Part shown: piece by piece, positions 9,903 through 53,541 of the stretch | Position numbering within the stretch: the stretch's first letter is position 1 | Layout of the letters: each line of letters starts with the position of its first letter | DNA from: Hyposmocoma kahamanoa | Lineage: Eukaryota > Arthropoda > Insecta > Lepidoptera > Cosmopterigidae | Assembly: GCF_003589595.1 (NCBI RefSeq) | Contig: NW_020653900.1 | Location: 4,821,807-4,885,806 of the forward strand | Direction: 5' to 3' | Length of the DNA stretch: 64,000 nt | Program-made: the position numbers and the translations under genes | The notes under the pieces: generated by a model | Told to the model about the DNA's origin: nothing | Seen by the model: only the letters and a program-made list of their open reading frames with translations | Databases searched by the model: none

Positions 9903-9903
9903 T

Positions 9904-13479: not shown

Positions 13480-13646
13480 AACGACCAAGGTGGTCCGCTG
13501 GTGACGTGGATCGGTGGTCGCGAGACTGTCATCGGCGTGGCTTCGGCGTTCCTCGTCACCACCAAAATGGAGTGCAAGGGTCCCTTCATTTTTGCCAGCA
13601 CCGCTTGCTCTAGCAAGTTAATTCTTTGTGTTATGAGAAGTAAATT
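13480..13646 (+). CDS. Gene 1 exon a: NDQGGP block
   Basis: Acceptor TTTTAG before 13480, donor GTTAGT at 13647. It encodes NDQGGPLVTWIGG... through CKGPFIFASTACSS and ends after two bases of a Leu codon. 48 of 56 residues equal gene 2 exon 8. Confidence 0.85.
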
Positions 13647-16600
13647 GTTAGTATACATTTTTTTATGAGGACTAACCAACAGTGGCACTGTAGCTGAATT
13701 CAACCGTACAAAAGTATAGATATCCAATAAAACATTATTATTTTAATGTAATCGAAACCTTACTCGACTTTACGATATTCTGGCAGCTCTTGGAGTTCTT
13801 TTTTTCAAATAAACATCGGCAAGCGCAATTTCACCAATTACAGTTTTTTAGAATTAAGAAAAATGTGTATCTAGTGCAGGAAATGAAACTATTTTTGCGG
13901 ATCAAAATCACGTATATTTTTTTTTAAACAAGTCAACGTTTCGGCAGCATGTTATGGATAAACCTACATACTCAATTAAATTCGACAAACCCCAGGTCCT
14001 TGCAAAAGCAGTTCGTTATCTAACCAGGATGCTGCGTGAGGCCGTTGAATTTTTTTTTACAACGCACACTTATAGCCCCGCACAACATGGACATACCCAT
14101 AGACAACCATAAATTACACCTAAACTCACGAGAGAAATAAATATAGGCCATACAACGGATGAAAAATCCTAAGCGGATATGTAAGGCTGCAGTACTGATA
14201 TTTTAATTTATTCTAATTGGCATTGTTGATTATCAATTAATAATTAATTTAATTTAAAAATTAATATTGTTAAAATAAAATAAAATAATTTGTAAAACAT
14301 AATTCGTCCGTGTTTTGTAGAAAGGGCGAAAGCGCCATTTAGAAAAATTTTTGAGGGAGCACGTTGAGTACAACTATTTAACTAATAGTCGTGAACAAGT
14401 ATGTTCACGACTGTTTTTTGAATATTTACGTCCTGTTTTAAATTAAATATTATAATTTAAACTTAATTAAAACCAAAATAGAATTTAAAAACACTACGTA
14501 AATATGTTAAAACAGTGTTATAACGTAAAACATGCTCCCCTGAACAGTTTTCTGAAATGGCGAAACCCTTTCTATAAAACACCGAAGTAACGCAAATTGA
14601 ATGTTCTTTGGAAAAATTAATAGTAAGGTATTTACTTAATAAATTTTGTAACTATATTGAAAAATAGGATGGTTTGCATAACTGGTTGATGACTTTACCA
14701 TCTCAGCCAGCCGTGACCATGGGACCTGTAAAGTGCCCGAACGTTGATTTGTTTGATTTAGATAAAAAAAAAATAGTTTAATTTCCTATGTATGAGAACC
14801 GCGAAAACCTAAGAACTCGAGAAAAGACCCAGTGATCGTACAACTTTTTGTTCAGCCGACAAATTACTTTAAATATTTTAGTAGTAGTAGAGCTGCTTGT
14901 GAAAGAGTTCGTCCAGGGAAGTACTGCCACCTTACTTATTTCTGCCGCCAAGCAGTAATGTCAGCATTACTGTTACTGTACATTACATAATGGCTTCACA
15001 TTTTAGTTTGTACTTCAGTCAAGGTTCAAAATTACACGATTAGACCCGCAGGAGAGTGCCATCGTTTTAATTTTCTGTGTTACTAAATACTAAACGCTAA
15101 GTGAAAGGGCGCCTTCAAATTAGATGCTTATAGAAGCTATGCATTGCCGTCACAGTTGTGACACCTGCGCGCCACTTTGCAGGTACACAATTAAGCGTAA
15201 AACACACATAGAGCGGGTGCGAGACGGGCGCGGCCGCGGGATGTGCGCACGGACCCGCGCTCGGTGTATTATAATCCATATAAATACATGGCATCAGACC
15301 CGCTGCGGTCCCGACCCGACACGCGCCCGACCCCACTAGCTCTTTGTGTGTTTCACATATTAGTAAACTAAAAATTACTGAAGCGCTACAGACGCGCGAA
15401 ATATAAGTCATTTTGTAATTATATATTTATTAACACAAGACAAAAAATACATGCCAGACTACGTAAGAAAAGCAACAAATGCTGAGAACAAAATCGAGAA
15501 TTCCTCACAACGAATAGATAAGTAGGTTGTGGCATTACGTGTAGGTAGTACTTGGTAATAAAAACAAAAGCAATGAACTATTGAACTAGTATGGTTGCCA
15601 GCTATCCCCGGTAGGGCTAGCAGGACAGATCGCGACTTGCGAGAGAGCAGCCCCATATCTTTCTAGATAAGTTTTGTTTATAGTGAACCCCTCCTTATCA
15701 TTCTCTTTGTGATACGGGGAGGGCACTATAACCAGTGCAAGTAAGCTCGCAGAGGGACTATCTCAGTCAGGTCCAGACCCCAGATTAGCCCGTAGCCTCT
15801 GTATGATTCACACTTTAGTGAACTAAAAATCACACAGCTGGACTTGCCACTGCAGCGCTAATACAAGCATCTACTTTGAAGATGCCCAAATACAAAGATG
15901 GACTGTAAAATTTCCTTGTGTACGAGATATGTGATATTGCAGATCTACTGCGATCGTCGTTGGACGAACAAAAATTGAGAACAGCTTTTATATTAAACTT
16001 AAAAGGCTCCACAAATTGTAGACTGAAATGATAAATAATCCTTTGTATGACCAGGCGACGGAGTGCAGCAGACTGTGATCAAGTAGCTCAAGAATCCGGA
16101 CAACGTGTTGTCGAAACTGTAATAGATTGGGAAAATAATAAGTATGTTATTTTTATTGATAGTTTTTTTTTCTTTCATCTCAAAGTCAAAGAATCATTTA
16201 TTCCATAGGTAAAATAAATTTACACTTGAACACGTCACATTTAAGCAACTGCTCGTTTACTAGGCTAACTTTCCTGAGAAGAACGAGCAAGAAACTCTAA
16301 GGCATGCTCTTTTCAAATAAATGAATGCTATTGAATACTTTACACTTTGAATCAAATTTGTGTGAAATTTAGAGCCGTCTCGTCTTTTCATACATCTTTA
16401 TCTAACACGTAGTCTTCAATTTTGTAACATGACTTTCCAATCAAAATATTTTTAATGTAGTTTTTAAACTAAGGAAATGATAATCTTAATATATGCTGTG
16501 GTATGTTATCGTAAAAATATATACAGTTAAACGAAATCGTGGTACCATGAGTTTGGACTTAGCTCAAAGTATAATATTATGGATGCCTCCTTTCTTGTTG

Positions 16601-19600
16601 AAATTACGTATATTTTTATGAGCATATAAAATATTTGAGTAAATGTACTGTGATGCCACAGTCATGATATCAGTCTCCTTAAACTTTTCTCTGAGAGAAA
16701 CCCGAAAACCTAAACGATAGACACAATGAATTGCTTGTTTTTGCAATACAAATATGGTTTGAATGTCTGCCGCTTTACCCCACATGAGAATCCCATAGGA
16801 CATTATACTATGGAAGTTACTAAAGTAAATAATCTGGCAGTACTAACATCGGTAAGCTCATGTATTCTGCGTACTGCATACGCAGCGGAGCTTGGTCTGC
16901 TATTCAGGAAAGATATTGTAGAAACCGTTGAAGTTTACTATCTAAGGTCACTCCCAGGAAGACTAGTTTATTAACCATACCAAGGTCTAGCCTTTTTCCG
17001 TTTATTTCCATGCTTGGACTTTTAGTAGCTTTTACGTTAGGTAATTCAAATTTAACACACTTTGTCTTCTTGGCATCAAGCAATAAATTGTTAGCATTAA
17101 ACCAATAAATTACCTTAGAGAACCCTTTCTATCTATCTATCATTAATATGGTCATAGTTATCATCGTTTTAAAAATCAAGGTTGTGTTGTCAGCAAGGAA
17201 TACTATTTCGCAATGGCCCTTACGAAGAATGGCATATCATTAATATAAAAAAGAAATAAGAAAGGTCCAAGTATTGAGATCTACGGAACACCCATCTATG
17301 TAAATCGATTTTTTGGTAAGTATAGCAAAAAGTCGAGTTTATATAAACTGTATACAATTAATTATTTAAATATTCCTTTAATAATTTTTACACCATATCG
17401 TGTTTTTAGGTTTTCGCCAAATTACACATTAGAAATAAAAACATTTATGTTTTCGGATTAAAATCGCGTATATATGTTTTTTCAAACAAACTAAAGTTTT
17501 AGACCCTTTACATGTTCCATGGTCACGGCTGACTGGACAGATACTTACGTATTATAAACAACAAAAACATATTTTTGCCTAAAAAAGGTTAACCGATAAC
17601 CGCGCGTCCAAGTGCCAAATCATATCTAATTAACCACTCGGGCGCCTTAGTTTGCCAAACATACGGCCTACCCCTTTCCCTCCATTCCGGAAATATAGCT
17701 CCTGCCCACAATTACCCACTGCGCTCAGTTACTTCAGATGACTTTAGTGGTTGAAATTATTCTATCTTTATTATCGAAAAAAATATTTTTTGTCGTCTGA
17801 GGTAATTAATGGTCATTTAAAAGTATTTCGACTCATACGAAGAACAATATCCAATGTGATTATACAGCGAAAAGGGGTTAAAATATAATCTCGTGCTTCA
17901 AAAGGCCTATACATATAAAGGTGTTTTTAGTTTTTTTATGTATTTATTATTTCGTTTGGAAATATAAAATCGAACTACAGTCGATCTTGACTGTGGATAT
18001 CCGCAGTCACGAACAACAAACAAAATGTACAATGTGCCGAGAATAAGCAGCATCTTGCACATAGGTCGTTGTTCTACGGATGCGTCGCTTTGCATCAAAA
18101 TCTATGGGATAATTATGCCACAAAAACTGCCACCAATTTACTCGTGCAGACTGACCGATTTGACTTATGTATTTATATGCAAACAAATCAATCATTTTTA
18201 ATATTTAGACGAGTTTGATACTAATAACCAGAATAAATGCAAGTCATTTTGTCCAGGAAAGAAGCAGATTTTCTCTTAAACTTCATTATCACAATTCTCC
18301 GGATTTAGCCTAAAATCACCCACAATAGTTCCGTTCTATTATGAGACATAAACCAGGACTAATATTTCTTTAATTTATAGGAAACATAGAAGATCGGGAA
18401 TTAGAAATAATATGAGTGCATTTTGGAAAATATTCACAAGGTAACTTTAGTTTTTAATGTAATATTATACTACTGCTTGTAGTTGGTGATCGTCAATATA
18501 ATTATATATTTCTTAACCCAAGACAAAAAATACATGCCAGACCACGTAAGAAAAGCAACAAATGCTGAGAACAAAATCGAGAATTTCTCACAACGAATAG
18601 ATAAGTAGGTTGTGCCATTACGTGCAGGTAGTACTTGGTAATAAAAACAAAAGTAACGAACTATTGAACAAGTGTGGTTGCCAGCTATCCCCAGTAGGGC
18701 TAGCAGGACAGATCGCGACTTGCGAGAGAGCAGCCCCATATCTTTCTACATAAGTTTTGTTTATAGTGATTAGTAACCCTCCTTATCATCCTCTTGCTGA
18801 TAGGGACGGGCACTATCAACCTGTTCAAGTAAGCTCGCACAGGGACTTTCTTAGTCAGGTCCTGACCCCAGATTAGTCCGTTTGTCTTGGGTGAGCTGCC
18901 CCAGGGGCACGTACAGCGCCTTCCCTATTTTGCAGACAGGTACCGGAGCTGTAGGCAGACACGCTCACTACCCGTTGCGCACTGAGCAACTAACGGTTGC
19001 CACTGCTAAACTTGTGACGGTGTGACCTCCTTGCATCGTCATCCCACCTTTTTATCGCCTTTCTCCGGTTTCTGGCCACTCGTATTTAAATTTAAATTTT
19101 GAATTGTTCCATTCTTTTGCCTCACATTCTGATTTTGTTTAATTCCACCGTCACTCCCTGTTCGATTGCGGCAGCGAATACATCTTCTCTTCTTATTTTT
19201 TTGATAAACATTAAAAAGATCATAAATATTGTTAAAGCTGGAATAAATATTAATAAAACTGGATTTATTACCACTAGTTCTTTACCCTTTTGAACTTTAA
19301 ACTTTAAGCAGCGCTCTCGCACTGGCGCCCGAACAGGGAATTTGTAGACCTGAATATTTCTGTTTTACTGCCGTGAACCTTAGGGTTCTAACCCTTTCAA
19401 GCTGTCGACTCTAAAGACTACTACCAAACCTCCTCTTTGGTGGCGGAGCTGTAAGTCACGCTCATTTCCCGACGCCAAAGCGTCTCTCTAGTTCCCAGAA
19501 ACCTACGCGACTGGAGGGACCGGATGATGTCTAGCTCACCCTCTACTAGCCCTCTGGGCTAGTGCCAGTCGCTGGGTCCTGCGACAATGTCCGGATATAA

Positions 19601-22600
19601 CTTCCGACTTAAAGGGCAACTCACGTGCCCCGCGCGTCTCCTCGCCTTGGGCTCTCGTCTAGACCGCTACTAAGATGCGCTATTCTGGGGCAGACGAACG
19701 TGCTGGCGAGTCCCATACCCAAGTCCAGGTCTACCAGAGACGCTCGCGGGAGCCCGTAGTCTCCCCGGAACTCCCCATTTCTCGGGCTGGTAGACAGGAA
19801 CAGCATGCGAGAGTAGTATAAAGCGCGAGATACTGCTATTCACGCATAGATATCATGCGCTTTATGTCGCTCTCGCGCAAGTTGCGCCCTATCATGCCTA
19901 GCTCCTTGTCATAAACAAGGCATTTTGGTAACTTTCGAGTTATTGACACCTAAAGATCTTTTTTTTAAAACGTCAATTAAATTGATTTTGTTTAATAATA
20001 AAACAAAATAAGATATAAAAGAAACGGTTAGGACGGTTTGTTGATCTCGTGTTGCTGATTTCAGATAAGTTAATATTATATGTCGATTACGTTGTTTAAT
20101 TTAAGGTTGTTTATGATACATAAGGACAGCAGTATTGATCCTTAATGTTCCGGTCGAGTGGGTTTGTGTATTTGAGAGGCTGGGTGTTGGATGTGGGGTG
20201 AGCACAAAAAGACTTAGGATGATAATAATGATTTGTTCGTGTTTTACAGTACGTCTAAGGTGGATGTAGAAACCACAAAAGCTATAAACGCGAGTACGAA
20301 GTCATATCTAGATTTGAGGTATGTGGTAAATACAATTGTACACAATTTGCGCTATAATCGACTTAGAAATAGAAACAGTATATAAATACAAAGTCTCACC
20401 ATTTTGTAGCCTTTTGTAGTATACCTGCACTTAGTAAAAATCCTCAACTTCCTCAAGCTAAACCAGTTATTCACCCTCAGAGCACTTGCGCTCTGCGTCC
20501 GATCCGCATCAGTGCCCCAATTCTGCTAATTTTCCTAAAACCAATGGTCATTATAATTCCATTGAGACTGCACTGTGATTATAATGCTATTATGATAATA
20601 TTTGTTACTCCGCTAATATCTAGTTGCAACGGCAATTCAGTCTCAATAGAGTGTCAGTGTAGAGTGCACTGATGGCATTCATTCATTCATTCATTACTAA
20701 CGATCGATGTTGCTTTGTTTAAACCTACCATGAAAATTACTACCTATGCATTTTTGATTTTTATCTCGTTTAATCAACAACTTAGTCTTCACATTAATGA
20801 ATAATATTAGTAGACTACACTATTGATATGCTATCGACTCGCCATTGAAGAGAAGTACCCTTTGTATGTGTTACTGTACTATACTGTTAAATGATGATAA
20901 AGCAAGTGATCACAGTAACTGGTAGTTTCCTCTGACCGCCACCGCATTAACGGAAGCGCCACGCGTTCCACCGCATTTGTCGGAGATCTATAATTTAGGC
21001 GCCTGGTGGACGTAGAGGAAGCGCGACAACGTACGAGCACGAAACTCACCTCTAAGGACAGTGTAGCATAGTTCAGTTGTTCAGCACTCCCTTTACCTAC
21101 CGATCCGTCCCTCTCCAGACATTCCTTCTCCATACAGTCCACTTCTACCTCTCTTCTTAAAACGAACAACTCAACCCGCTCATATTCGGCGCATACCGTC
21201 ATACAGTTTGACTGCCGCGCTGAAACAGCAGTTGAATGCTCGATGGCTAACCACTGACAAGCCAGTACTCTTCTTTCTGAGTGTGTGCGTAATAAACAAC
21301 TGGGATGATTTAAATTAGCAGACTTGGGATCCAGTTTTGAATGTGAGAAATGGAAGTAGTCATTAATTCTTTTTGTACATATGTATGAGCTATTACGCAA
21401 TAAATCCGAATTCCGTCTTCCAAAGTAAAGAATACCTTCAATAGTAACTACAGTATTATTTGCATTAACGACTAACTGATAAGAAATAAAAGGTCTTTTG
21501 ACGTTTCATTTTCATATGCAAAAAAACGAGTATTTTTAAGCGAAATCATTGGATGTTTATTTAATTGTAAAGAGGAGGGTATGCCATTAATAATGGAATA
21601 CAATATCATTCAAATGGCCGCGCTTGCAAGACTATATTCTTTTCATTAAATTTTCAAAATCACCAGTTCGCACATTTGCGGTATGTCCTCGATAACTGCA
21701 CGAATTCCATTTTTGAAGTCTTGAATTGATTGTGGGCCATTGCCATAGACCTTATAGCACCAAACAAAAAGTCCAAAGGTGTTAAATCACAAGATCTCGG
21801 TAGCCAATTGTTATCGCCTCTTCGAGAAATTACACGGTCAGGAAACTTTTCACCCAAAAGAGCGATGGTATCGTTTTTTATGTAGCACGTAGTTATTAAT
21901 GGTATACGCTCCTCTTTACAATTAAATAAACATCCGATCATTTCGCTTAAAAATACTCGTTTTTTTACATATCAAAACGAAACCTTTCATTGGAAGACCC
22001 TTTATAAGTAAATTTAATTATCTTATCTAAAGTTTTTGATTGTTTATAACTATCTATGCGACTGATAAAAAAAATCATATGATTTCGTTAAGTTTTAATA
22101 CGTTCGTATCTTAATTATTTTTATTTGGTTAATTTTACAGTGTTATCAAACGCGTTTTTTCTCTGTTTACGCCTAATGTGCAGGCATCAAAATCACAAAT
22201 ACGACGTTTGGACGTAAGGTGGGTATTGACATGTCTAATACAATTTTATAATATTATCAGTTCTGAATATGAGAACGATGACATAGGGTAAATAAGGTGT
22301 TATTAATAATCACAATGCAATGGGTGAATAACAAAATTATTAGTTGGATTAACTAAAAGTGCTATGATCTTTTGTTAATAACGTCGTTTTATTATATTTA
22401 TTTTAACCAAAAGATTCCTGAGATTGATAGTGATACTCTAGTTTAGAAGCCATTTGATTCTATTAATTAATTAATTAGTTTACCATTTTTGAATTATTAT
22501 ATCAATAAAGTTTATTACATATATTTCTTTAATTTTCTGACTCTAAAAAAATAAAACATTATCTGTAAAATCAAACAAGGGCTTACTTTTGTGACGTTAC

Positions 22601-23255: not shown

Positions 23256-23571
23256 AACAATGGAGCGGAAATTTGTGAGCCATTAGCCGGTTTTAAATCC
23301 GGTTAAAATGCAGGTGGGGTGTTTGGGTTTTAACCCACTGCCCATCTCTGGGCCCTTACAAAAATCATCCATAACAAGAATGGTAAAATGAAAAACGGCT
23401 CTAAATGACTCGACGATGGAAAATGTAACTTTACAGACATTTTGAACATGCTTTAACTGAATAAATAATTATTTATTAACTTCATTCCTATTTTTGTCGA
23501 ATTGCTGATACATTGCATGTTGCATTTTATTATTTGTAAAATGTTTATTATTTTTGTAATTGTTTCAATTC

Positions 23572-23577
23572 AATAAA
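23572..23577 (+). other. Probable polyadenylation signal of gene 1
   Basis: AATAAA 317 nt after the stop, in AT-rich sequence with no repeat between, so the 3' UTR would be about 330 nt. Confidence 0.5.
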
Positions 23578-23683
23578 GTTTATAGAACTAAAACGAAAGT
23601 TACTTTTAATTTTATTAATTGTTCTTGAACTGTACGAAGTACTGTTAATTTTAATTTTAAGGAACTGTGTCACCTTCAATGTA

Positions 23684-23967
23684 GTAGCAGTAGAGCTCCT
23701 TGTGAAAGAGTTTGTTCAGGAAAGTATAGCCACAGTACCTATTTCTGCTGCCAAGCAGTAATGTGAGCATTACTGCGTTCCGGTTTTGAAGGGTAAAGGT
23801 GCTGGTGAAATTACAGTTACGTGGGACTTGTTAACTTATGTCTCAGGGTGTCGGGCGCAGTGGCAGTGTCCCTCAGATCTTTGCGATTTAAAGCTCTAAA
23901 TGGTACTGCAACTGTTATGGACAGGCGCGTAGCTTAACACCAGGCGCACGACTTGTTCGTCCCGTCG
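23684..23967 (+). mobile_element. Family-A repeat, near full length
   Basis: Complete from AGTAGCAGTAGAGCTCC to TTGTTCGTCCCGTC. It is followed directly by the module also seen at 13215 instead of the usual AT tail. Confidence 0.75.
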
Positions 23968-24035
23968 AGTATTACTTATTTGACAGTAATTGTTTCGGAT
24001 GGATATTGGGCAGAGAACGAGAGTAGGCCTGCGCC
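23967..24035 (+). repeat. Dispersed repeat module, copy 2
   Basis: TTTGACAGTAATTGTTTCGG and the following GAGAACGAGAGTA, as on the same strand at about 13272-13315. Confidence 0.5.
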
Positions 24036-24205
24036 GTTTACTTAGTTATTTATGAACTCGATTCTAATTTAGCATCCAAAGTTATACCTATAAATGCAAC
24101 TGTATCTACAAGGTTTGTTCTTTCGTTTCTAACTATGATATTTTGTGACCGTCTGTCTTACATTCGGCAAGTAAATATTACACGAGCTGTTTTTTTTTCA
24201 TTGAA

Positions 24206-24501
24206 AGTAGACAGGAATTGCCGGTTCTGGGCCACCTGTTAAGTGGGAATGTGGACCTTATGTGTATTATGTGTGTTTTGGTGGTGCTATGAGGGTCGCA
24301 GGTCAGGTAATGTTGGTTTAGTGTGTTGTTTGATGCGGTGTGGCTGTTTGCGATGAGCTATGGGGTCAATAATGGGTGGTCATGCGCGTAGGAGAAATAC
24401 ATAAAGCCCCTTTAAACGCTGCCAAGTCATTCTCACCCCACAACCATAAAGTCCACATTCCCACTTAACAGGTGGCCCAGAACCGGCAATTCCTATCTAC
24501 T
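24206..24501. mobile_element. MITE with about 50-bp terminal inverted repeats
   Basis: 296 bp. Both ends carry AGTAGAYAGGAATTGCCGG and the inverted repeat continues for about 50 bp with one or two mismatches (to GGGAATGTGGAC). There is no coding capacity, so it would need a transposase in trans. It sits in the short space between gene 1 and gene 2. Confidence 0.85.
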
Positions 24502-24945
24502 ATTGAAGAGCAGGTTAATAACTGCAAACCAATCAACTATCTATAAATAACATTGTTCACCTAGCACTCGTGAACGCCTTGCTGAAATAAAAAAAATATT
24601 GCGGTTAAGGTAATTCCTTATTATATTTTCTGGTCAGCTTCCCATAGAGTCACAGTCAATTGCCAATTCTAATTGATTTACGTTATTAATTATTACAGTG
24701 GAGTTTCGAACAAGGTAGATAACACTTTCAAGGCTAAGCAGGCGCTTTTCAGAAATATTAGTATTACTAAAAATATACTCAGAGAAAATTGTAATCTAAT
24801 AAATTTATTCTGGAGTTTATAATCATGAAGTATATTAACTCGCTTGAAATATTTACTGAAAATTGGGTGACATTTACGATTTAGGAAGTTCATCGAAGTT
24901 TTACAGTGATATTATAATAATTTTGTAGAACGATAAACAACTGCT

Positions 24946-25000
24946 ATGATATATTTGAAAATCTTTACTTTTACATTGTGTTTCGTATTTATTGTGGATT
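24946..25000 (+). CDS. Gene 2 exon 1: signal peptide
   Basis: ATG then MIYLKIFTFTLCFVFIVD, a short basic start and hydrophobic core. Strong donor GTAAGT at 25001, phase 1. A few AT-rich bases upstream give no clear promoter. Confidence 0.75.
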
Positions 25001-46000: not shown

Positions 46001-49000
46001 AAAAGTAGGATTATAATTGGAATTAAAGGTGTACTAACTCTATGTTTTTTCCAAATTCCATTCTCTGCTTGTTGTATTCTATGTACACAGTGCAATACTC
46101 TTTGCTGCTAAGTGCAGTATGTTTGGTGGTCGGTACGTATATCATTTTAAGTTTTAAGGTTTGTTATTTATGTAGTAAACGTATATAGTGAGTGAGATAC
46201 CCTCCTATTTATTTATTTATTTATATATGTATTCGAAAAGATACCCGTCTCTATATGCTACGGTGTCTCCAGCGACTTGCCAGGTGAAGCCTGAAAACCA
46301 GCAAATTGCTAAGGCTTTTTCCTTTTCTTCGACATAGATTTAAGCATTGTTTTATCTTAAATATTGTTGTGTTTTCTGTTGAAGAATAAAGCCTTTTTAT
46401 TTTTATTTTTATTTATATTTGTTTTTTTATGAGGTGTCATACCATCGAGTATATAACCCTTCGACTATTTTTTTTCCATCCTCTAAGATATAACCAGAAA
46501 TAGAGACGAAATGTCATTTAATTTGTTTGAAAACTATTTTGCCATGGCATTACTGTGACAACTTGCATTGGCTATCCCGAATTCGAAACAATTGACGGGT
46601 GTCGTCAGTGTGTGTCGTCAATTGTTTTACTTCAAATTGACCAGTTAGCTTGAGCTTTGCTGTACTGGACGAAAATTGCAAAATTACATATTTAATGTTT
46701 AATAGCCGATGAAATTTGATTCCGTTTGTTTTGTAATTAGATGTTTTGTTATTTTTCCCCACACCACCGAATGGAACAGCACGCCATTGTTAGAGATTAT
46801 TATTTTTTATTGCAATACATACATAATATTTTTGGAATATAAGGAGACGTGTAAACGAGAGTTGATATTTATAAGTGATGTATCACTGATGAATTACCAA
46901 GAATGTATGGCCCTTATTTCGTCTGTGTTTTTGGTTATATACTCGATGTCTCATATAAACACGTTGGTGTCCATCGTACTGTCTTAATATAACATCCACA
47001 AAATAAATATGTGCGTGAAAACTCGTTGAATTTTATCAATATGTTAACGCGGCAGCGCTGAGAGCGCCCCGCATCTAATCTCCTGCTTCGCCTGCCCCGC
47101 GCCCTCGCCTCGCGGGTAGCCCGCCACGTCGAATGACTGCCCATCTCGCCTCTGGACTCCTGACGTTCCTGTATCCAGTCCTTGGACGCCACTCAGTTAT
47201 CGCCTTACTCCATCTGACATCTTGTCTCCGTATCAGGTGCCCTGCCAGCTCCGCTTTAGCTTCATAATACGATTCAACACGTCCTTTACCTTTGGTCGAC
47301 TTCGAATCTGGACATTAGGAACACGGTCGGTAAAAGTAATAAATCGTCGCCTTACCTACTTAACCTTGTATCTTATTCAGGAGATGGTAAAGTATCAATT
47401 TATTTTAAATTTCTTATCAAGGGTGTTAATTTGAATGTACTACTTTAAGAATATAAAAATAGAAAAAGAAAAAGAAGAAAAAGGTAAAAGTCAGTGTGTG
47501 AATATGAAGGAAATGTGATGTCAAATAAACCTGCGAAATTTGTAAATACAATCCATTTTTAGCGTTTCAGTAACTTTGTGCTTTAAGATACGAGTTTGAG
47601 AAAATAAGGCGACGAAATGCGTACTAAATTCCAAGTCGTTGTTACTTTCTTCACCGGTCCTTTACGTTGTTGCTACTTCTCTATTTAGAAGCAGTAGGCG
47701 GCGACTACAGAAAGTACTTGGAAATCGCACTGTGAAGCGGTTGTTGGTTTTTTTAGATCTATATAGCAAAAAATGGTACCATATTCTGATATTTAATTTT
47801 ACGGTAAACGATGTCATTGTCCATAAACGGGTTAAGCAACTTTGTCTTTTATGGCCCTAATAAAGTGAACTTGTTTGTTTCAGTTTGAATGAAACAGGAA
47901 AGAAAGCCATTAAACACGGTCCAGCGACATATTATGGATATTACAGAACGAATAACAAACCTCATGTAACTACAACTACGTCAAAAATGTACAAATTAAT
48001 TTTATACAACAATATTTAACAATAATATTTTATGCAACAATAGACACAACTTTAGTCAAAAGTAAAAATTCCATTACGAAAGGAAATTTACTTGCTATAT
48101 TGGTGTAACAGCGACAGAAGATATTTTTGTGAAATGAACAATTTGAAACCATGATATTGCTATTTGCAATTTGCAATATCATGGTTGGGAAGTGAAGAAC
48201 CATACTTCATTTTTATCTTGTATCTTCTAGTGATGCCTCATTGAACCCTTTGCTAGATAGAAGTATTGTCAAAAAACAGAAAGATCTGGCTGAACAATCT
48301 CATGTATTTTGCGACATGCCAGTATCCGTGGCTTTGGGATTGTAAACTTTAAATCTATGAGACAGAGACTACATATTCATATCATATCATTCATTAACAG
48401 CTGAAAGATTCTTCTTGTTATGAAATTACAAAACACTGTATTGAATCATGGAGTGTTTTGGTTTGACACGATAGAAAGTCGTTTTTTATTGTTAAAATTT
48501 GAGCCGCGACAAATGTTAGTAGACCCCCGCTCATGTGCTACTGATCATTCCCAGGCCAATTACCCAATAATAATATTATTTTCCAGCCAACCACAAGCTG
48601 TAGCTTGAGACCACAGAATTGTTGAGGTTGTACACATGACCTTGAACCATAGAAACTTGATCTTTTTTGACCTTCACTGGATTACATCCCATCTGATCAA
48701 AAAGCGAAAAGGAGTCCCTGTTTTATGAGAGCGATGGAATTAACTCTGGAGCGCGAACTAGAACCAATTTAGAAAAGTTCTGTGTTCCTAAATACCCTAT
48801 CGAGAATCGAACTCGAATCGAAAAAAGAAAAAAAAGGCGTCATCTAGTGCCAATAGTGCCAACCGCCAGGTCACAAAACATGTCAAACGTAGATAAATAG
48901 TCGTAATGTGAAAGTGGATTGAGTAAATGCTCATTACTTAGTAATAAGCTTATTATTTATTTGTTACATTTAGGACACAAACGGGGACAAAGCGGACGAG

Positions 49001-52000
49001 ATACGTGACCCTACATGAAGCTTCGCAGATGAGAGCTGAAACTCTCCCTGAGACTCAACCTGGGCGTAGTCGGTAAGTGGGTTACTGAGCCGTTGTCGTC
49101 CACAGACATTTCAATATTTACCACTAATTTCTACATGGTCATTTGTCCGGAGTTATTCTATTATAGTATAACAATTATGCGCATAAATTCGCATAACAAT
49201 TATACGGGATTTATTATTTTCGCGCAAAATTATACGTCACAATTGTTGAGCCAGATGATACAGCTGTCTGTTTTTGCATGTAAGAGATTTTTTATCATTG
49301 GCATGTATTTTAATTTTAAACAAATTGTTGAGATATTGTGCTGTATTCTATTGTTTGTTTTGTACATCCAGGAGTAGCATTTATTTAGTAGCAGAAGAGA
49401 TCCTTGTGAAAGAGTTCGTCCAGGAATGTACTGCAACCTTACCTATTTTTGCCGCCAAGCAGTAATGTCAGCATTACTGTGTTCCAGTTGTGAAGGGTAA
49501 GGGGTGCTGGTGAAATTACAGGCACATGGGACTTGTCAATTTATGTCTCAGAGTGACGGGCACAGTGGGAGTACCTCTCAGATCTTTGAGATTTAAAGCT
49601 CTTAGCGGCACTGCAACTGTTATGGACAGGCGTGTAGCTTACCATCAGGCGCACGACTTGTTCGTCCCGTCATTTAGTATCATAAAAAGAAGCAACTTTG
49701 ATTACGATCGTCGTGTCACAGAACTTCGTAGATGACTGATTAAACTTCACGTAAACAAGCCATCAAAGCCACCCCTTCTGTGACCTCACCCAGTTTAAGC
49801 TGTCAAACTGACAAGATGTTGTAAACAAAAAATCATTTTGATCGAGATTAGTTACATAGATATCTAATAAATTATTTATCTAATGATTAGGTAACAACAC
49901 GATATACATGTATTAGCTAAGATGTATCCTTCTGTAAAGCATATTATGTACACAATAAATCGAATTCTGTAACATTAAGTTTCAAGTGATAACTGTCTCC
50001 GAGATAACATTATGTCTGAAATTACATATGTACGCCTAATATCAATGTCTAACGTCAAGTATTTTGACAACGTTTAGTAATAATAATCTCTCTTGGTGTG
50101 TAGGTGTGCTTTGTGAATGTGTATATGTGTCTTATTAATATGCGTGGCTTTGCTGGGAGACGCTGGTTCGAATCCAACCGAATCGAGGTGAATTTTGTGG
50201 TGGAAGTTTCGTTCGTTATTCGTTATTTGTTTATAACACTGGTGGAGTAATGTCACAAAAAAAAAATTGAATATCATAGCAGTGAAACATCATAACATTC
50301 AATAAAACTTAATTACAATTATTAAAGTGACATCTCTAGTCAGCGGCTGGTAGCTGTAAAGGTACCTCTCTGAGTGAAGAAAAACTTTCATAGATTTCTC
50401 ACAGGTGGCGCTACTGCAACAAACACATGGCAAAATTCGCGAGATTCGTTAATCCGTTCCGTGGCTTAGTTGGCATAGCATCAGGCACGGTTTTCTGGGA
50501 GACGCTGATTCAAATCCAACTAGATCAAAGCAATTATTTTCTAAATGCTCGATCTTTGTTTAATAATTATAACAAACTAGTGGAGTAATTTCACAAAAAT
50601 GTTATTGACTATCATGACGGTGAAATATTCTGATATTCAACAAAACTTAATTATATACAAATAAGCCAAATTAAGTAAAGCTATTTAGAATTTTTTTATT
50701 AATATTGCATACGTGCTTTTATGACGTAACTGCTGCAACCTGTTTCTTATTATTTTTTCAGCTCTGCGGAAGGCATTGACAAAACAAATGATTACACATT
50801 TGATGAATACAGGTAAGAAGTTTTTGTGTTAAAAAAGTTTAAGAGTTAAAAAGAAAGTGAATTAATTTAAATTTGAATTATAACCATGCACGATATTTTT
50901 CAGTGAAAATGTATACACGTCTTCTAATCCTTACGATACTAACAGTGGCGACTATTGGTAATTTTTTGTTATTTTTCCTTGTAGGTATATATAGTTTTAC
51001 TTTAGTAATTATCATTTGCTAAAACGGTAAAAGAAAACATTTTGTTGAAACTAAACGTGATGGTAACGTTTACCTTTACAAAATTCTTAAAGATTTGAAG
51101 TCCACAACTCCCTGTGGCCTATAAACATCTCTAAGACCCTTGCATAGTCTAATTCCTGAAAGCCAGAAACTTCTTTGCATCTCGATGCGTAGTTTATATT
51201 ATCCCTATCACAGATAATAATATAATAATATACTAAAACCAGACAGATACCCAATCTCATACAAATATTTTATCTGTAAGTCAATGCATACAAAGGAATG
51301 TCGCACACGTAGGTAACTCCGCTTATTCGAACACTTATTTTTATTCTTAATACTGAACAATAGATGGTACGAAATAAACCCGCGTTGCGATTATAAAAGT
51401 ATACGGTCTACAGATGGCAGCAATTACATTTTTGTGAAGGTTGTTGTTCTTATTCAAGCATTGATTATATATTTGATAACAGATTTCGAAAATATATTCA
51501 AAGAAATGCCATCTATGTAATTTATTGCAAACTAACATAGTACTGAGAAACCTTCGGTTTTGTTGTCTTTTCAACGACAGTTTTCATCAATTTTCATAAT
51601 TGTAAATGAATTTTAAACATTCCTTAAATATTGTTTAAATAATTTTGCATTCCTTTTTTTATATTTTATACTTGTTATTATGACATACCCCAAATTTTCG
51701 AGATTCAATATTTTTTTATATTACCTAAATGTTGCCATCTACAGTTTTAAACACGTTCTAAAGTTAATTTGTATGACTTGATACTCCATGTCTTTATCCT
51801 ATCCACCTCACACAATTGATATTTCATCAATGTATATCTTCTACTCTATTTTATACATTATAATTTGCAATACTTATATTTATAGGGCTACCGATCAGCA
51901 GGGTACACAAGATCCCAATGACTTGAACTATTACGGGTAAGGATCATTGATTGATTGGCTTCCTTGTTGTCAATTAAGTATATGATTTAGTTTGATATTG

Positions 52001-53541
52001 TTTCTTTTGTAATTTTTAGCGAAGAAGTTAAAATCAATGGGACAAATCAAGAAGTAGTCGGGTAATACAGAGTTGATGGTTATAATACTTAGGTTTTAAA
52101 AAAGTTCTGTTTTAAAACGTGGAACGTAATGAAATGCAATATCGATAAGATCATTGCTGATATCTGTATTGTATCTCCGTCACAATGCATGACCGCCCAG
52201 ATACCATGCCTTCATGTACATTAATGGCGAATGTCAATTCTATTTACTAGGCAACAACATTTATAAAATCTTCTGAATTATACAACCGCCCGGCCGACAC
52301 GCGGGCCGCCGCGTAGACAATTAAATCCAGTCTCACTCGCGCGCCGGTACGCTCATTTACGTTAAAACGTAAAAACTAAATAAATAGAGCGTATTTTGCC
52401 ATGACAGTTAGACGAACGCGGTCGCTACGCGGCGCCAACGTGGACTCCGCTCGGGAATCGCGCGGCGGCCGCGCGGAGTGAAAGCGATAAAATTCATGTC
52501 GAATAAAAGCATTCTAATGGTTTAACCTATCGCTTCTGAGGTCATGGATTCGATTCCAGTCACGCACTTCTGAGTTTTTCGAAATTTATGTGCGAAATTT
52601 ACTTTCCAATTTACCATGGGCTTGTCGAAGAAGGTTCACAACCCTTTGAAAACGTGTGAAGTCCCCATCCCGCATTGGGCCAGTGTGGCGGACTATGGCG
52701 TAAATCCGCGCCTGAGAAGACTCCCGTGCCCAGCAGTGGAACGTATAAATGGGTTGATGTTGTTGTTGTTGGTATATAATGTAACAATAATAATGTACTA
52801 GACAAACGCACTTATTGCCTGGTCTCAACCCAGGGAATCGTCTAAATAATGATTACCAGAGCAATCAAATTAAGTAAAGGGATAATCCCAGAACATCCAG
52901 AACAAAACCAATTTTTAAATTGTCCTAAATTGGACGTAGTTAAGCAAAAAGGATCTAATCTATAAAATTATAAAAAAATGAGTTATATGTACCAAACGGT
53001 TCCTAAAGTCTTACCTCTTAGATAAAAAAAAAATCAACATATAAACATAAATAAATATCTCTGGAGTTACATGACATTATAAGTTTTGAAAATAAAACAA
53101 GAGTGACAATCACTTTAAAACTTCAAATTGCCATATCTCAAAAGTGACTGGATGTACAATTGGAACCTTTTTGTTTAACTATGACCAATTGACCCTATCG
53201 AGATTAAAACCTTAAATATCTAATTGCTGTGTGTTAAGCCACTGAGGTAATCAAATATTGTAATGATAACGAAACGACCTTACTTGATCATTTCAATATA
53301 GATGCTGTATACTTATGTTCTATGTTGTAGACGTAGTGGAGATTACAGAAAACGGCAATCCAATAACCAACAAGAAAGGCAAGATAAGAAACAAACTACG
53401 ACAAATTCAAAACCTTCCAATTTTACAAGCAGTTATAATGCAACGAGTGACAGAACAACAAATAACATTACAACGAGTGTAACGCAATCGCATTCTAACA
53501 CAAGTTATGTTCAATTTGACGACAAAATAAAACACATATGA
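24946..53541 (+). CDS. Gene 2: secreted inactive serine-protease homologue with multi-exon tail
   Basis: Proposed exons: 24946-25000, 26341-26402, 31361-31589, 32618-32874, 37407-37623 (or 37619), 39654-39733, 40366-40467, 41050-41216, 42452-42538, 46091-46132, 47884-47988, 48974-49072, 50762-50812, 50904-50957, 51886-51936, 52020-52061 and 53331-53541; about 636 residues. An 18-residue hydrophobic signal is followed by RRR-VLNG in place of the usual R-IVGG activation site, then WLCGGAII, LTSATC (active-site His replaced by Thr), LLGWG, and NDQGGP (active-site Ser replaced by Gln). MGNLGLARI stands where NDIALL is expected, so Asp also seems lost. It should fold like chymotrypsin but not cleave. 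The tail after residue about 418 is Asn/Gln/Thr-rich with several N-glycosylation sequons. One junction (exon 5 to 6) needs a weak donor, and the exon 11 end is a choice between two donors. Confidence 0.75.
25040..25260 (-). mobile_element. Degenerate SINE family S3 copy
   Basis: It keeps the S3 order (AATTCCTTCGACCC, a decayed B-box, then CAGATCTTTGTA) but the tRNA-like head is eroded. Confidence 0.4.
25850..26215 (+). repeat. Dispersed non-coding repeat (CGACCTCAAAAGT family), copy 1
   Basis: AGAGTACTAAAAAAMYSACCTCAAAAGT followed by GAAATCGGTTCCCGGAAAGT; the same order recurs at 31690-31790. Confidence 0.6.
26341..26402 (+). CDS. Gene 2 exon 2: activation-site region
   Basis: Acceptor CGTCAG, donor GTAAGT. 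It encodes CSRRRVLNGHKVHSVKPYM; VLNG aligns with the mature N-terminus IVGG of trypsin-like enzymes and the preceding RRR is a plausible processing site. Confidence 0.8.
26533..26852 (-). mobile_element. Family-A repeat, full length
   Basis: Reverse orientation in the intron after gene 2 exon 2; ends in ATCAAGTGGTGGGACGAAC and CTCTACTGCTACT are both present. Confidence 0.78.
27221..28494 (+). mobile_element. mariner-family transposon, about 1.27 kb
   Basis: The left end GGGTACACTATAAGTGTCCG and the right end (in reverse GGGGCGCGCTATAAGTTTCC) are imperfect inverted repeats at the expected distance for a mariner. The left end is preceded by TA; a matching TA is not directly at the right end. 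It lies in gene 2 intron 2. Confidence 0.85.
27369..28277 (+). pseudogene. mariner transposase with premature stop
   Basis: Likely original start is the ATG at 27387 (MDLTHGNFRSMIFYDFKC). An N-terminal helix-turn-helix half is followed by LCSRWIPHNLTKAQK and the DD34D catalytic blocks GDETWIYSYD, HHDNASSHTA and YSSDLAPCDFYLFP. All three aspartates are kept. A TAG at 28275 interrupts the protein after PKIKN; the normal continuation LRGQRFSSPEEAVEEY is readable after it and then decays. Confidence 0.92.
28576..28862 (+). mobile_element. Family-A repeat
   Basis: Directly downstream of the mariner. Nearly full, with a small gap where CAAGCAGTAATGTCAG would be. Confidence 0.75.
28918..29143 (+). 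repeat. Family-P repeat
   Basis: Contains GTGACCATGGGACCTGTAAA, GGGCCCGAAACGTCGG and CGCGAAAACCTAAGAACTCG. Confidence 0.65.
29270..29562 (+). mobile_element. Lepidopteran SINE family S2
   Basis: The order TTCCCACTGCTAGGCG, GGTTTCCTCACGATATTTTT, CAGAGGTACAAGCCCGGAT, CTTGAGAGGCGATAGGTC and TTAGGCTACAACGGCTTC is the widespread lepidopteran SINE layout. Other copies at 52515, 62205 and 63736. Confidence 0.8.
29836..30052. repeat. Family-P repeat, palindromic
   Basis: The left arm (GAAACTATTTTTCCGGATTT) and the right arm (AAATCCGGAAAAATAGTTTC) are inverted copies, so the whole element folds back on itself. Confidence 0.7.
30700..30970 (-). mobile_element. SINE family S3
   Basis: Minus-strand head GCTCAATTGATAAGAGCAAT, then a body ending in AAAGATCGTTT; matches the plus-strand copy at 62735. 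Confidence 0.65.
31096..31240 (+). repeat. Family-P repeat fragment
   Basis: CGAGTTCTTAGGTTTTCGCG, then ATCGCGTATATTTG, then CCTGTAAAGGGTCCGAAATG; ends 120 bp before gene 2 exon 3. Confidence 0.6.
31361..31589 (+). CDS. Gene 2 exon 3: CGG and histidine-loop region
   Basis: Acceptor TTTTAAG, phase 0 start. It encodes YLVKHQWSHAFYEGWLCGGA and LTSATCVKDVYN; the TAAHC block has Thr in place of His. The donor is GTTAGG, phase 1. Confidence 0.8.
31690..31790 (+). repeat. CGACCTCAAAAGT family, copy 2
   Basis: Shares about 90 bp with 25865-25960. Confidence 0.6.
31915..32095 (+). mobile_element. LINE 3' end fragment
   Basis: Frame giving WNALPASVFPEKYNLGLFKA and RVNRHFLG, then TTAACATCAGGTGAGA and an A-rich tail: last residues and 3' end of the LINE group also at 38217-39120. 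Confidence 0.75.
32116..32334. mobile_element. Fold-back (hairpin) MITE, copy 1
   Basis: The whole 219 bp is an inverted repeat around a short centre. Inner arms contain ATCCTCTCCAATTCTTGTAA and its complement, outer arms TCATGGAA, ATGGCATAAGTG and TTACGTCAAA. A second copy at 63544. Confidence 0.85.
32485..32592 (+). repeat. Family-P repeat fragment
   Basis: Short degenerate copy (GGACTTGTAAAGAGCCCAAA); ends just before the gene 2 exon 4 acceptor. Confidence 0.45.
32618..32874 (+). CDS. Gene 2 exon 4: aspartate-loop and GWG region
   Basis: Acceptor TTTCAG, donor GTAAGT. It includes MGNLGLARINSPFAF (expected position of the catalytic Asp, here Asn/Gly) and GILLGWGNRRFYRP, where GWG is the conserved chymotrypsin block. 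Confidence 0.85.
32930..33222 (+). mobile_element. Family-A repeat, full length
   Basis: Starts 55 bp after gene 2 exon 4 and has all landmarks including the AT tail. Confidence 0.78.
33240..33375 (+). mobile_element. SINE S3-related copy with good tRNA head
   Basis: TAGCTCAGTTGGGAGAGCAT is a close A-box/D-arm; GTCGCTAGTTCTAGTCC is the B-box counterpart. There is no acceptor-stem pairing and the flanks are SINE body, so it is not a working tRNA gene. Confidence 0.55.
33405..33650 (+). repeat. Minisatellite, 44-bp unit, about 5 copies
   Basis: Unit starts CACTCAAAGAACAATGGCAA and continues with a T-rich run and CTGTGAGAAATGT. Copies differ by single bases. It directly follows the SINE. Confidence 0.88.
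33651..34330. other. Gene 2 intron, AT-rich
   Basis: No element recognised. Confidence 0.4.
34480..34680 (-). mobile_element. SINE family S1
   Basis: Minus strand: CTCCGTGACCGAACGGTTAC (A-box region), CCCAGCTTCAATTCCCGGGT (B-box region), then the body with CATGGCACCCGCGACACAGG. Matches 58053-58270 over its whole length. Confidence 0.78.
34700..36020. other. Gene 2 intron with short TCCCCACA repeats
   Basis: At 35169-35250 the motif TCCCCACA/AATCCCC recurs four or five times. Otherwise nothing recognised; small frames lack support. Confidence 0.35.
36030..36135 (-). mobile_element. Family-A repeat, 5' part
   Basis: Only the first 105 bases of the family, reverse orientation. Confidence 0.68.
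36206..37384 (-). mobile_element. Internally deleted DNA transposon with TIRs
   Basis: The left end TATACAGGCTGTATATTTGA...GTGAGACATATTCAT and the right end (in reverse TATACAGGCTAAATATTTGA...GTGGGATATACTTAT) are inverted repeats of about 40 bp. Inside, on the minus strand, the start (IYSNVELTEM) and the end of a DDE transposase are directly joined; the catalytic centre is missing. The GC-rich part 37050-37215 is the 5' leader of that element. It ends about 22 bp before gene 2 exon 5. Confidence 0.75.
36770..37090 (-). pseudogene. Transposase remnant, N- and C-terminal ends fused
   Basis: The N-terminal start MDIYSNVELTEMI (about 37053-37015) is followed after a short gap by the C-terminal traces VLHERIISAFYTVMQNM and LLRRARLCIVENGGHFEH (36930-36790). 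These resemble the two ends of a Tc1/mariner-like enzyme common in insects; assignment rests on motif memory. Confidence 0.55.
37407..37623 (+). CDS. Gene 2 exon 5
   Basis: Acceptor GTTTTAG. It encodes RGDLTIYNEKDLRYTSVVVV through DDTCFNCEETE. The best donor (GTAAGT at 37620) gives phase 0, but exon 6 is open only after a phase-1 junction. A weaker donor GTTATA at 37624, or GTATTT after CIDGQ, keeps the frame. Confidence 0.65.
37984..38008 (-). repeat. CTTAGAGGATGG motif, copy 1
   Basis: GCTTAGAGGATGGAAAAAAA on the minus strand, also at 46465-46487 (minus) and 63261-63289 (plus). It may be the end of a transposon family. Confidence 0.4.
38217..39120 (+). pseudogene. LINE RT C-terminal half and 3' end
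   Basis: FAYADDSTVVDRYL (catalytic YADD) at about 38250, MQACLFSTKRSPFEL and LQLLGMDLSANLNFG (38415-38550), then LISPSPFHHRGTRRR and RTKRYASTFIWRTA (38855-38990), with the LINE end CATCAGGTGAGAAGG at about 39098. Several frameshifts and a stop near 38725. Situated in the intron between gene 2 exons 5 and 6. Confidence 0.82.
39121..39653. other. Gene 2 intron, AT-rich
   Basis: Nothing recognised before exon 6. Confidence 0.4.
39654..39733 (+). CDS. Gene 2 exon 6
   Basis: Acceptor AAACAG. The only open frame gives GWDDKYCKIITSEEPVVISQ and NNKIYT; donor GTAGAA, phase 0. Confidence 0.55.
39734..40365. other. Gene 2 intron
   Basis: Nothing recognised. Confidence 0.4.
40366..40467 (+). CDS. Gene 2 exon 7
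   Basis: Acceptor ATTTCAG, donor GTTAGA, 34 whole codons ending in SYGNGPCQ. The Cys would be the one just before the GDSGGP block. Confidence 0.75.
40468..41049. other. Gene 2 intron
   Basis: Nothing recognised. Confidence 0.4.
41050..41216 (+). CDS. Gene 2 exon 8: NDQGGP block
   Basis: Acceptor TTTAAG, donor GTAAGT. Same length and phase as gene 1 exon a. GVASAFMVTAKMECKGPFIF is shared almost residue for residue with gene 1. Confidence 0.88.
41351..41841. mobile_element. GC-rich TIR element with inner insertion
   Basis: The ends TAAGGTTAGTTACACATGGC and, in reverse, TAAGGTTGACTACACACGGC match inversely and continue into GCC/GCG-rich arms. The middle (about 41507-41710) is AT-rich with ATTCCAAATTCCATTTATT, probably a later insertion. 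The GC-rich arms give long but meaningless frames on both strands. Confidence 0.75.
42078..42378 (-). mobile_element. Family-A repeat, full length
   Basis: Reverse orientation, 70 bp before gene 2 exon 9; all landmarks present. Confidence 0.78.
42452..42538 (+). CDS. Gene 2 exon 9
   Basis: Acceptor TTTTCAG, donor GTAGGT. It encodes RRSAEYCESVAQRSG...MDWNTT. A second frame over these bases is also open but does not join exon 8. Confidence 0.8.
42539..43131. other. Gene 2 intron
   Basis: AT-rich; no element recognised. Confidence 0.4.
43132..43622 (-). mobile_element. MITE family M3, copy 1
   Basis: TIR CCAGAAATGGAGACGAAAT at the left and its partner CTCTATTTCTGG at the right. Inside is a palindrome with CAATTGACGACACCCGTCAA. 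It is an inverted copy of 46490-46938. Confidence 0.75.
43868..45855. mobile_element. Large inverted-repeat-bounded block
   Basis: TCATAGATATAGAAAAAAAG at the left and its reverse complement at 45827-45853 delimit about 2 kb. Just inside the left end is an 18-bp hairpin (43907-43949, arms with CCTCGATATGAT). It contains the GC-rich element at 45063-45475 but no coding frame. Confidence 0.5.
45063..45475. mobile_element. GC-rich TIR element
   Basis: Ends TTCACGGAGCGGCTTCCATC and, in reverse, CTCACGGAGCGGTTTTCACC. The interior is rich in CCGCC/GCGC in strong contrast to its AT-rich surroundings. No ORF. Confidence 0.65.
46091..46132 (+). CDS. Gene 2 exon 10 (micro-exon)
   Basis: 42 nt, acceptor TACACAG, donor GTACGT, phase 2 on both sides. 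It encodes AILFAAKCSMFGG. In another frame the same bases look like a signal peptide starting at ATG 46081; phase fit favours the internal exon. Confidence 0.6.
46465..46487 (-). repeat. CTTAGAGGATGG motif, copy 2
   Basis: TTTTTTTTCCATCCTCTAAG on the plus strand, adjacent to the left end of the M3 MITE. Confidence 0.4.
46490..46938 (+). mobile_element. MITE family M3, copy 2
   Basis: Same content as 43132-43622 in opposite orientation, bounded by CCAGAAATAGAGACGAAAT and GTCTGTGTTTTTGGTTAT. Confidence 0.75.
46985..47345 (-). pseudogene. RTE-type LINE C-terminal fragment
   Basis: Minus-strand traces RIMKLKRSWQGT and SGVQGLDTGTSGVQR followed by an Arg-rich end resemble the -LKWRWAGHVAR... end of RTE-group LINEs, in several frames. 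Confidence 0.5.
47346..47883. other. Gene 2 intron
   Basis: No element recognised. Confidence 0.4.
47884..47988 (+). CDS. Gene 2 exon 11 (tail)
   Basis: Acceptor TTTCAG. It encodes LNETGKKAIKHGPATYYGYY and RTNNKPHVTTTTSK. Donor GTACAA at 47989 keeps the frame; GTAACT at 47966 looks stronger but would end translation 15 codons into exon 12. Confidence 0.6.
47989..48973. other. Gene 2 intron with a short perfect hairpin
   Basis: AACCATGATATTGC and its complement, 12 bases apart, at about 48147-48186. Otherwise nothing recognised. Confidence 0.4.
48974..49072 (+). CDS. Gene 2 exon 12 (tail)
   Basis: Acceptor TTTAG, donor GTAAGT, 99 nt. It encodes TQTGTKRTRYVTLHEASQMR and ETLPETQPGRS. Phase 2 on both sides. 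Confidence 0.72.
49387..49690 (+). mobile_element. Family-A repeat, full length
   Basis: All landmarks, 300 bp, followed by ATAAAAAGAAG. Confidence 0.78.
50090..50230 (+). mobile_element. SINE family S3 fragment
   Basis: Decayed head, then GGTTCGAATCCAACCGAATC (B-box-like) and the CTGGTGGAGTAATGTCAC motif. Confidence 0.5.
50390..50605 (+). mobile_element. SINE family S3
   Basis: TTCCGTGGCTTAGTTGGCAT, then GATTCAAATCCAACTAGATC and CTAGTGGAGTAATTTCAC; the clearest plus-strand copy of the family found at 5281. Confidence 0.7.
50762..50812 (+). CDS. Gene 2 exon 13 (tail)
   Basis: Acceptor TTTTTCAG, donor GTAAGA, 51 nt; SAEGIDKTNDYTFDEY. Confidence 0.75.
50904..50957 (+). CDS. Gene 2 exon 14 (tail)
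   Basis: Acceptor TTTTTCAG, donor GTAATT, 54 nt; ENVYTSSNPYDTNSGDY. Confidence 0.75.
50958..51885. other. Gene 2 intron
   Basis: AT-rich; nothing recognised. Confidence 0.4.
51886..51936 (+). CDS. Gene 2 exon 15 (tail)
   Basis: Acceptor TTATAG, donor GTAAGG, 51 nt; ATDQQGTQDPNDLNYY. Confidence 0.75.
52020..52061 (+). CDS. Gene 2 exon 16 (tail micro-exon)
   Basis: Acceptor TTTTTAG, donor GTAATA, 42 nt; EEVKINGTNQEVV. Confidence 0.72.
52270..52500. other. GC-rich island in gene 2 intron 16
   Basis: Two blocks rich in GCCG/GCGC (52285-52345, 52420-52490) around an AT-rich centre. The look is that of the TIR elements at 41351 and 45063, but I could not match the ends. Confidence 0.3.
52515..52770 (-). 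mobile_element. SINE family S2
   Basis: On the minus strand CCACTGCTGGGCACGGGAG and the end region with GAAGCGATAGGTTAAACC; orientation opposite to 29270. Confidence 0.75.
53331..53541 (+). CDS. Gene 2 last exon
   Basis: Acceptor GTTGTAG, 70 codons, stop TGA 53539-53541. Rich in Asn, Gln, Thr and Ser with sequons NFT, NAT, NIT and NTS. An upstream ATG at 53302 in another track of this frame is intronic. Confidence 0.78.

Follow-up and report, generated by a model that had tools for sequence, protein, structure and literature searches.

What kind of protein would be made by a gene that joins a protease fold lacking its catalytic residues to a tail of small exons, each of which can be removed without disturbing the reading frame? 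This question is raised by a 64,000-nucleotide stretch of the Hyposmocoma kahamanoa genome (the window), whose plus strand carries two S1-protease homologue genes in tandem, gene 1 and then gene 2. A first-pass annotation had described both as inactive proteases with tails built from symmetric phase-2 mini-exons. Its central observation is in part confirmed herein, and its interpretation is partly supported. We consider it reasonably probable that these genes encode duplicated, secreted S1A pseudoproteases, each composed of a scaffold core and a flexible, fast-evolving tail made from phase-2 exons.

The left part of gene 1 lies beyond the window edge, upstream of 6298. Its visible exons were placed as follows, with splice scores where they matter.

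6298-6384, plus strand: exon before the NDQGGP exon, 87 nt, phase 0 to 0, GHGICQ at its end
13480-13646, plus strand: NDQGGP exon, 167 nt, phase 0 to 2, weak donor (2.5)
16055-16141, plus strand: tail exon T1, 87 nt, phase 2 to 2, splice scores 7.1/4.2
18381-18440, plus strand: T2, 60 nt, phase 2 to 2, score 17.6
20250-20318, plus strand: T3, 69 nt, phase 2 to 2, score 17.3
22141-22218, plus strand: T4, 78 nt, phase 2 to 2, score 19.7
22634-22744, plus strand: T5, 111 nt, phase 2 to 2, score 17.5
22828-23037, plus strand: T6, 210 nt, phase 2 to 2, acidic, 69 open codons, scores only 4.3/4.1
23165-23255, plus strand: terminal exon carrying the stop codon, followed by A(A/T)TAAA signals at positions 23460 and 23572

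The placed intron phases are 0 and then seven times 2. The exon at 6298-6384 lies outside the interval covered by the first-pass annotation and was placed from a weak tblastn hit (15 aa, 46.7%, E 2.5) followed by reading of the sequence. Its AG and GT score 4.8 and 6.6, and its junction with the NDQGGP exon is open and in frame.

Gene 2 spans positions 24946-53541. Seven core exons with intron phases 1, 0, 1, 0, 0, 0, and then 2 are followed by a tail of six internal exons and a terminal exon, in which every junction is phase 2. The label T2 is reserved for an unsupported segment at 47884-47988.

24946-25000, plus strand: exon 1, signal-peptide-like MIYLKIFTFTLCFVFIVD (judged by eye), exit phase 1
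26341-26402, plus strand: exon 2, predicted zymogen-type cleavage site RRR/VLNG (by motif)
31361-31589, plus strand: exon 3, LTSATC (His57 to Thr), weak donor (2.7)
32618-32874, plus strand: exon 4, GNLGLARI, Asn in the place of Asp102 (motif only)
37407-37619, plus strand: exon 5, possible alternative end at 37551
40366-40467, plus strand: exon 6, 102 nt, phase 0 to 0, GNGPCQ at its end
41050-41216, plus strand: NDQGGP exon, 167 nt, phase 0 to 2
42452-42538, plus strand: T1, 87 nt, phase 2 to 2, score 19.2, homologue of gene 1 T1
48974-49072, plus strand: T3, 99 nt, phase 2 to 2, score 17.9
50762-50812, plus strand: T4, 51 nt, phase 2 to 2, score 22.8, phase 1 open too
50904-50957, plus strand: T5, 54 nt, phase 2 to 2, weak (splice scores 4.7/4.9)
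51886-51936, plus strand: T6, 51 nt, phase 2 to 2, score 17.0
52020-52061, plus strand: T7, 42 nt, phase 2 to 2, score 14.4 (under the cut-off of 15 used below)
53331-53541, plus strand: terminal exon with stop, variant signals only (AATATA at 53653 and others)

Once spliced, gene 2 and the visible part of gene 1 are each open up to one stop. The two NDQGGP exons of the first-pass annotation are confirmed, each with 167 nt, entry in phase 0, and exit in phase 2, and all seven placed introns beyond this exon in each gene are phase 2, as it had also stated. The length of each of the 12 internal tail exons is divisible by three, an open phase-2 frame having been one of the criteria used in placing them. 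The tail exon sizes fared less uniformly. They had been listed without positions, and in our own matching of sizes to positions nine of the 12 find an exon (60, 69, 78, and 111 nt in gene 1; 99, 51, 54, 51, and 42 nt in gene 2), whereas 192, 105, and the first 42 do not. The “192” exon of gene 1 is actually the 210-nt exon at 22828-23037. The “105” exon of gene 2 (47884-47988) was rejected as a tail exon: it has no usable donor (score -0.1), and a better donor at 47965 exits in phase 0. A 42-nt segment at 46091-46132 (phase 2, scores 6.0/6.6) may be a further tail exon and is kept as a candidate outside the model; that it corresponds to the first “42” is a guess. Missing from the earlier lists for both genes, yet present in both, is the 87-nt first tail exon.

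The intron phases upstream in gene 2 had been given as 1, 0, 1, 0, 1, 0, 0. They are indeed mixed, but the series placed here is 1, 0, 1, 0, 0, 0. The longer series is compatible with a variant that may exist, with the end of exon 5 at 37551 and a 50-nt exon at 39654-39703 (phase 1 to 0) after it; both versions are open. If exon 5 does end at 37551, the additional exon could represent an alternative gene 2 isoform.

That the core is an inactive S1 fold, as had been proposed, is borne out for gene 2. The joined gene 2 core matches the Pfam Trypsin profile PF00089 (E 1.6e-10; 41.7 bits against a cut-off of 20.6). Aligned with kallikrein 6, it carries Thr at His57 (LTSATC versus LTAAHC) and Gln at Ser195 (CQNDQGGP versus CQGDSGGP) and keeps Asp194, the latter stretch being weak when taken alone (i-Evalue 13). 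From its motif, we take the Asn of GNLGLARI to occupy the place of Asp102 in the S1 fold. Judged from these residues, the gene 2 catalytic triad is lost, at His57 and Ser195 by alignment and at Asp102 by motif only. Gene 2 lacks the N-terminal clip domain of clip-domain serine protease homologues: few residues separate the signal-like peptide from R/VLNG, and it yields no Pfam clip match at E<=10.

For gene 1, the visible core piece (113 residues including T1) gives no Pfam Trypsin match, and DUF316, below its cut-off, is the sole Pfam match. A weak match to tissue plasminogen activator (E 0.02) reproduces the same alignment around CQNDQGGP, with Ser195 changed to Gln. Gene 1 is a putative family member by its likeness to gene 2, with the triad seen at the Ser195 region only. 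Among the weak matches from the same search (E about 0.7) is hepatocyte growth factor, which is itself an S1 relative without activity.

A long insertion lies in the core between what we take to be the usual Cys182 and Cys191 positions. The last exon of this insertion differs greatly between the genes (34 versus 29 residues, with similarity confined to the end), which means that variability extends beyond the tail. As these exons (6298-6384 and 40366-40467, encoding the loop before Cys191) run from phase 0 to phase 0, each gene has a frame-neutral variable exon within its core.

The region of the former active site has nonetheless been kept. The two NDQGGP exons encode the same residue at 47 of 55 positions (85%), and their identity at codon positions 1, 2, and 3 is 0.84, 0.95, and 0.38, with 0.26 expected for random third positions. 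The dN is 0.11, and the synonymous estimate fails because of saturation. Such protein identity beside third positions matching at 38% indicates purifying selection on a catalytically dead region. T1 is also homologous between the genes (tblastn E 1.25e-4, match at 16056-16130; 14 of 28 residues identical without gaps), with codon-position identities of 0.64, 0.71, and 0.39, a dN of 0.48, and a dS of 1.50. Taken together, these figures indicate that the duplication is old and that the NDQGGP region has been strictly kept, T1 less so.

These data bear on whether the two genes are simply decaying pseudogenes. The lost catalytic residues and the transposon remains in the introns would fit such decay, as would the weak donors (2.5 and 2.7) and the variant signals of gene 2, which has no A(A/T)TAAA in the 859 bases after its stop. 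However, every placed exon is open, and the differences within the NDQGGP pair fall mostly at third codon positions. We therefore regard decay as highly improbable.

The transposon remains are recognizable. A 303-codon mariner-like transposase frame occupies 27366-28277 in the second intron of gene 2 (Pfam DDE_3 5.8e-05 and HTH_48 1.5e-04, both below curated cut-offs). Non-LTR retrotransposon frames are present on the minus strand at 507-3267 and, in the gene 1 intron before the NDQGGP exon, at 7086-9903. Matches to RVT_1 cover 1627-3264 (E 2.7e-33) and 7089-9113 (E 2.1e-29), the latter with RNase H too. Inspection by eye also shows a recurring repeat with ccttgtgaaagagttcgtcca, or near variants of it, at 49395-49496, about 32928-33010, about 23690-23760, and elsewhere. 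The copy at 49395-49496 is a false exon candidate derived from this repeat.

Beyond T1, the tails share almost nothing. Among 105 pairs drawn from 15 tail segments, a set in which one segment is the 105-nt exon rejected above and some junction residues extend into introns, two pairs reach p<0.02. One is T1 with T1, and the other is a marginal short match, KINGTN, between gene 1 T5 and gene 2 T7; apart from T1, this is about what chance would give. None of the 49 pairs within one gene reaches p<0.02, and exon duplication within a tail was rejected on this count. With no tail exon resembling its neighbor, an origin by exon duplication is without direct support. No tail exon recurs as a repeat in the window (blastn, E<=0.01), neither tail has a Pfam match at E<=0.1, and no relatives were found in viral contigs.

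In composition, the tails are hydrophilic. Hydrophobic residues make up 16.7% of the gene 2 tail against 33.2% of its core, and 26.8% of the gene 1 tail against 32.1% of an 84-residue core piece. Each tail has one cysteine and six N-glycosylation sites, the latter not a significant enrichment (P 0.20 for gene 2 and P 0.06 for gene 1). We assessed the signal peptide, disorder, and cysteine pattern by visual inspection.

Because the phase-2 frame was used in placing the exons, a frame-blind test of the layout was needed. We ranked AG..GT pairs of 30-250 nt by splice score and retained the best nonoverlapping ones, using a splice matrix written by hand from general knowledge and a threshold fixed after the exons had been seen. 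At a score of at least 15, the plus strand of the tails (21,633 bases) yields 15 pairs; 11 of these have a length divisible by three, and eight of the 11 are also phase-2 open. The corresponding counts (pairs/divisible by three/phase-2 open) are 9/2/1 for the minus strand of the tails, 14/2/0 (plus) and 16/7/0 (minus) for the 25,590 bases outside both genes, and 8/4/1 (plus) and 11/2/0 (minus) for the gene 2 core stretch at 25001-41049 (16,049 bases). Symmetric phase-2 open pairs are thus eight of 15 in the tails and two of 58 over the five control sets. Lowering the threshold to 13 gives 27/16/9 and 22/7/2 for the plus and minus strands of the tails, 34/7/0 and 32/10/0 outside both genes, and 20/11/1 and 17/2/0 in the core stretch. 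Simulated sequences have mean phase-2 counts of 0.38 (Markov-1) and 0.51 (Markov-3; 150 each), with a maximum of three over all 300.

In the tails, the symmetric open pairs number one in phase 0, two in phase 1 (both phase-2 open too), and eight in phase 2. The method has low sensitivity, since at the threshold of 15 it exactly recovers one of the six internal core exons of gene 2 (26341-26402); another exceeds the 250-nt limit. Four of the 12 internal tail exons (T1 and T6 of gene 1; T5 and T7 of gene 2) likewise score under 15.

One might argue that some of the small phase-2 exons are chance AG..GT pairs within long introns and that the true tails are shorter. Weak exons do exist, one proposed exon proved to have no usable donor, phase 2 was itself a placement criterion, and chance-looking phase-2 pairs appear at looser thresholds (41683-41727, 46091-46132, and the repeat-derived 49395-49496). 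Such a partial artefact is difficult to reconcile with the control and simulation counts given above or with the conservation of T1 between the paralogues, and we judge it unlikely. As far as the two sequences can tell, the strongest argument for a biological pattern is the homology of T1, and the phase-2 exon layout looks real.

A different division of the locus is suggested by gene 2 T5. This exon is open in two frames, serving as a phase-2 tail exon in one and in the other reading AAAATG followed by MYTRLLILTILTVATI, a signal-peptide-like sequence. The distal gene 2 tail could then belong to another gene that starts at this ATG. T5 has the weakest splice sites in the gene 2 tail, and its ATG frame exits in phase 1, as does gene 2 exon 1. 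When spliced to the next tail exon, however, this frame stops after 13 further codons. Moreover, the gene 2 tail stays in frame without T5, and tblastn with the gene 2 core finds no match past 53541 at E<=20. A separate gene here is therefore very unlikely, and we retain T5 in the tail of gene 2.

Could the tails instead serve to generate isoforms? The first-pass annotation had claimed that any tail exon could be skipped in frame, and this proved correct: all 12 single skips of internal tail exons leave the frame without a stop. Subsets of these exons are open in all 64 cases for gene 1 and in 56 of 64 for gene 2 (120 of 128 in total), and the eight failing subsets join 50904-50957 directly to the last exon. 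Variable splicing is thus possible, and alternative use of tail exons might give rise to numerous secreted forms, in line with what has been suggested for micro-exon genes. Weak splice sites in some exons (gene 1 T6 and gene 2 T5) would suit such a role. On the other hand, the splice sites of eight of the 12 internal tail exons are strong, and the exons are larger than those of micro-exon genes. Frame neutrality, being a property read from these sequences, permits splicing variants and does not demonstrate them. Isoform production is accordingly a tentative reading that we think improbable. We assign a similarly low likelihood to a related proposal, that a conserved, cleavable dead protease acts as a carrier for interchangeable phase-2 cassettes that are rewired between paralogues or spliced variably. 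If this were true, then phase-2 modular secreted proteins would have evolved once more in insects, independently of the bicycle genes of aphids.

We instead favor duplicated pseudoproteases with rapidly changing tails. An ancient tandem duplication would have produced two secreted S1A serine-protease homologues. Because gene 2 has lost the triad but kept R/VLNG and Asp194, its core is probably a binding scaffold, and cleavage may still switch its shape. The retention of both features suggests that cleavage might alter the conformation of the core, a behavior for which hepatocyte growth factor provides a precedent. The long hydrophilic C-terminal tail encoded by symmetric phase-2 exons could act as a spacer or an interaction region, presumably a flexible one. 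Since these exons are frame-neutral, they could be gained, lost, or rewritten during evolution without harm to the core, and such turnover may lie behind the uniform phase.

How does this arrangement compare with known systems? Serine protease homologues (SPHs) of Lepidoptera are numerous and often in tandem (PMC2996933, PMC4676143), with 92 in Bombyx (PMC2996933), and the genes reported here resemble insect SPHs in having an inactive S1 fold and a tandem duplication. For three trypsin clusters of Plutella, intron phases of 1-2-0 or 0-1-2 are given (PMC4676143). In contrast to our genes, a phase-2 exon tail is absent from the Bombyx and Plutella descriptions in the portions of those papers drawn on here (PMC2996933, PMC4676143). 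Among the matches listed from titles and the starts of abstracts of open-licence PMC articles, none combines a pseudoprotease with a phase-2 exon tail.

The cassette effectors KQY and KHI of the pea aphid are also large genes with a conserved front and a divergent part made of small exons (PMC7495047). In KQY1a, 33 of 37 exons are 15 bp or smaller, and the conserved part is the signal peptide (PMC7495047). The conserved part here is, by contrast, a whole pseudoprotease, and the exons are larger. Schistosome micro-exon genes (MEGs) likewise use symmetric exons in what are probably secreted proteins. In MEGs, exons of 6-36 bp constitute about 80% of the coding sequence, and variants have been confirmed by proteomics (PMC5825161). 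The tail exons of our genes measure 42-210 nt, the shortest thus exceeding the MEG range, and account for about 23% of the gene 2 coding region (384 of 1680 nt). These differences speak against the micro-exon-gene label of the first-pass annotation.

Its further statement that no described family has this build is too strong with respect to the phase pattern, because the bicycle genes of aphids (Hormaphis cornu and relatives) already provide a case of secreted insect proteins with symmetric phase-2 exons. These genes are implicated as secreted effectors, and almost all of their small internal exons are phase 2 (PMC9168663). As here, gene structure is kept while sequence diverges (PMC9168663). 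Phase 2 is confined to the tail in our genes, however, and is preceded by a mixed-phase S1 protease homologue; of the 12 internal exons in gene 2, the six that begin in phase 2 all belong to the tail. With one cysteine per tail, the tails, which were the part scanned, have no CYC motif. As two features that define bicycle genes are thus lacking, the layout is best called bicycle-like, rather than that of a member of this family.

If our reading is right, then this locus unites two ideas that are usually separate: pseudoenzyme scaffolds under selection, and secreted proteins lengthened by frame-neutral exons. The pair of paralogues also allows a direct test of whether phase is kept while sequence changes, since their cores are conserved and their tails agree in phase although most of the tail sequence cannot be aligned. 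Conservation of phase without conservation of sequence is precisely the claim that has been made for the bicycle genes of aphids.
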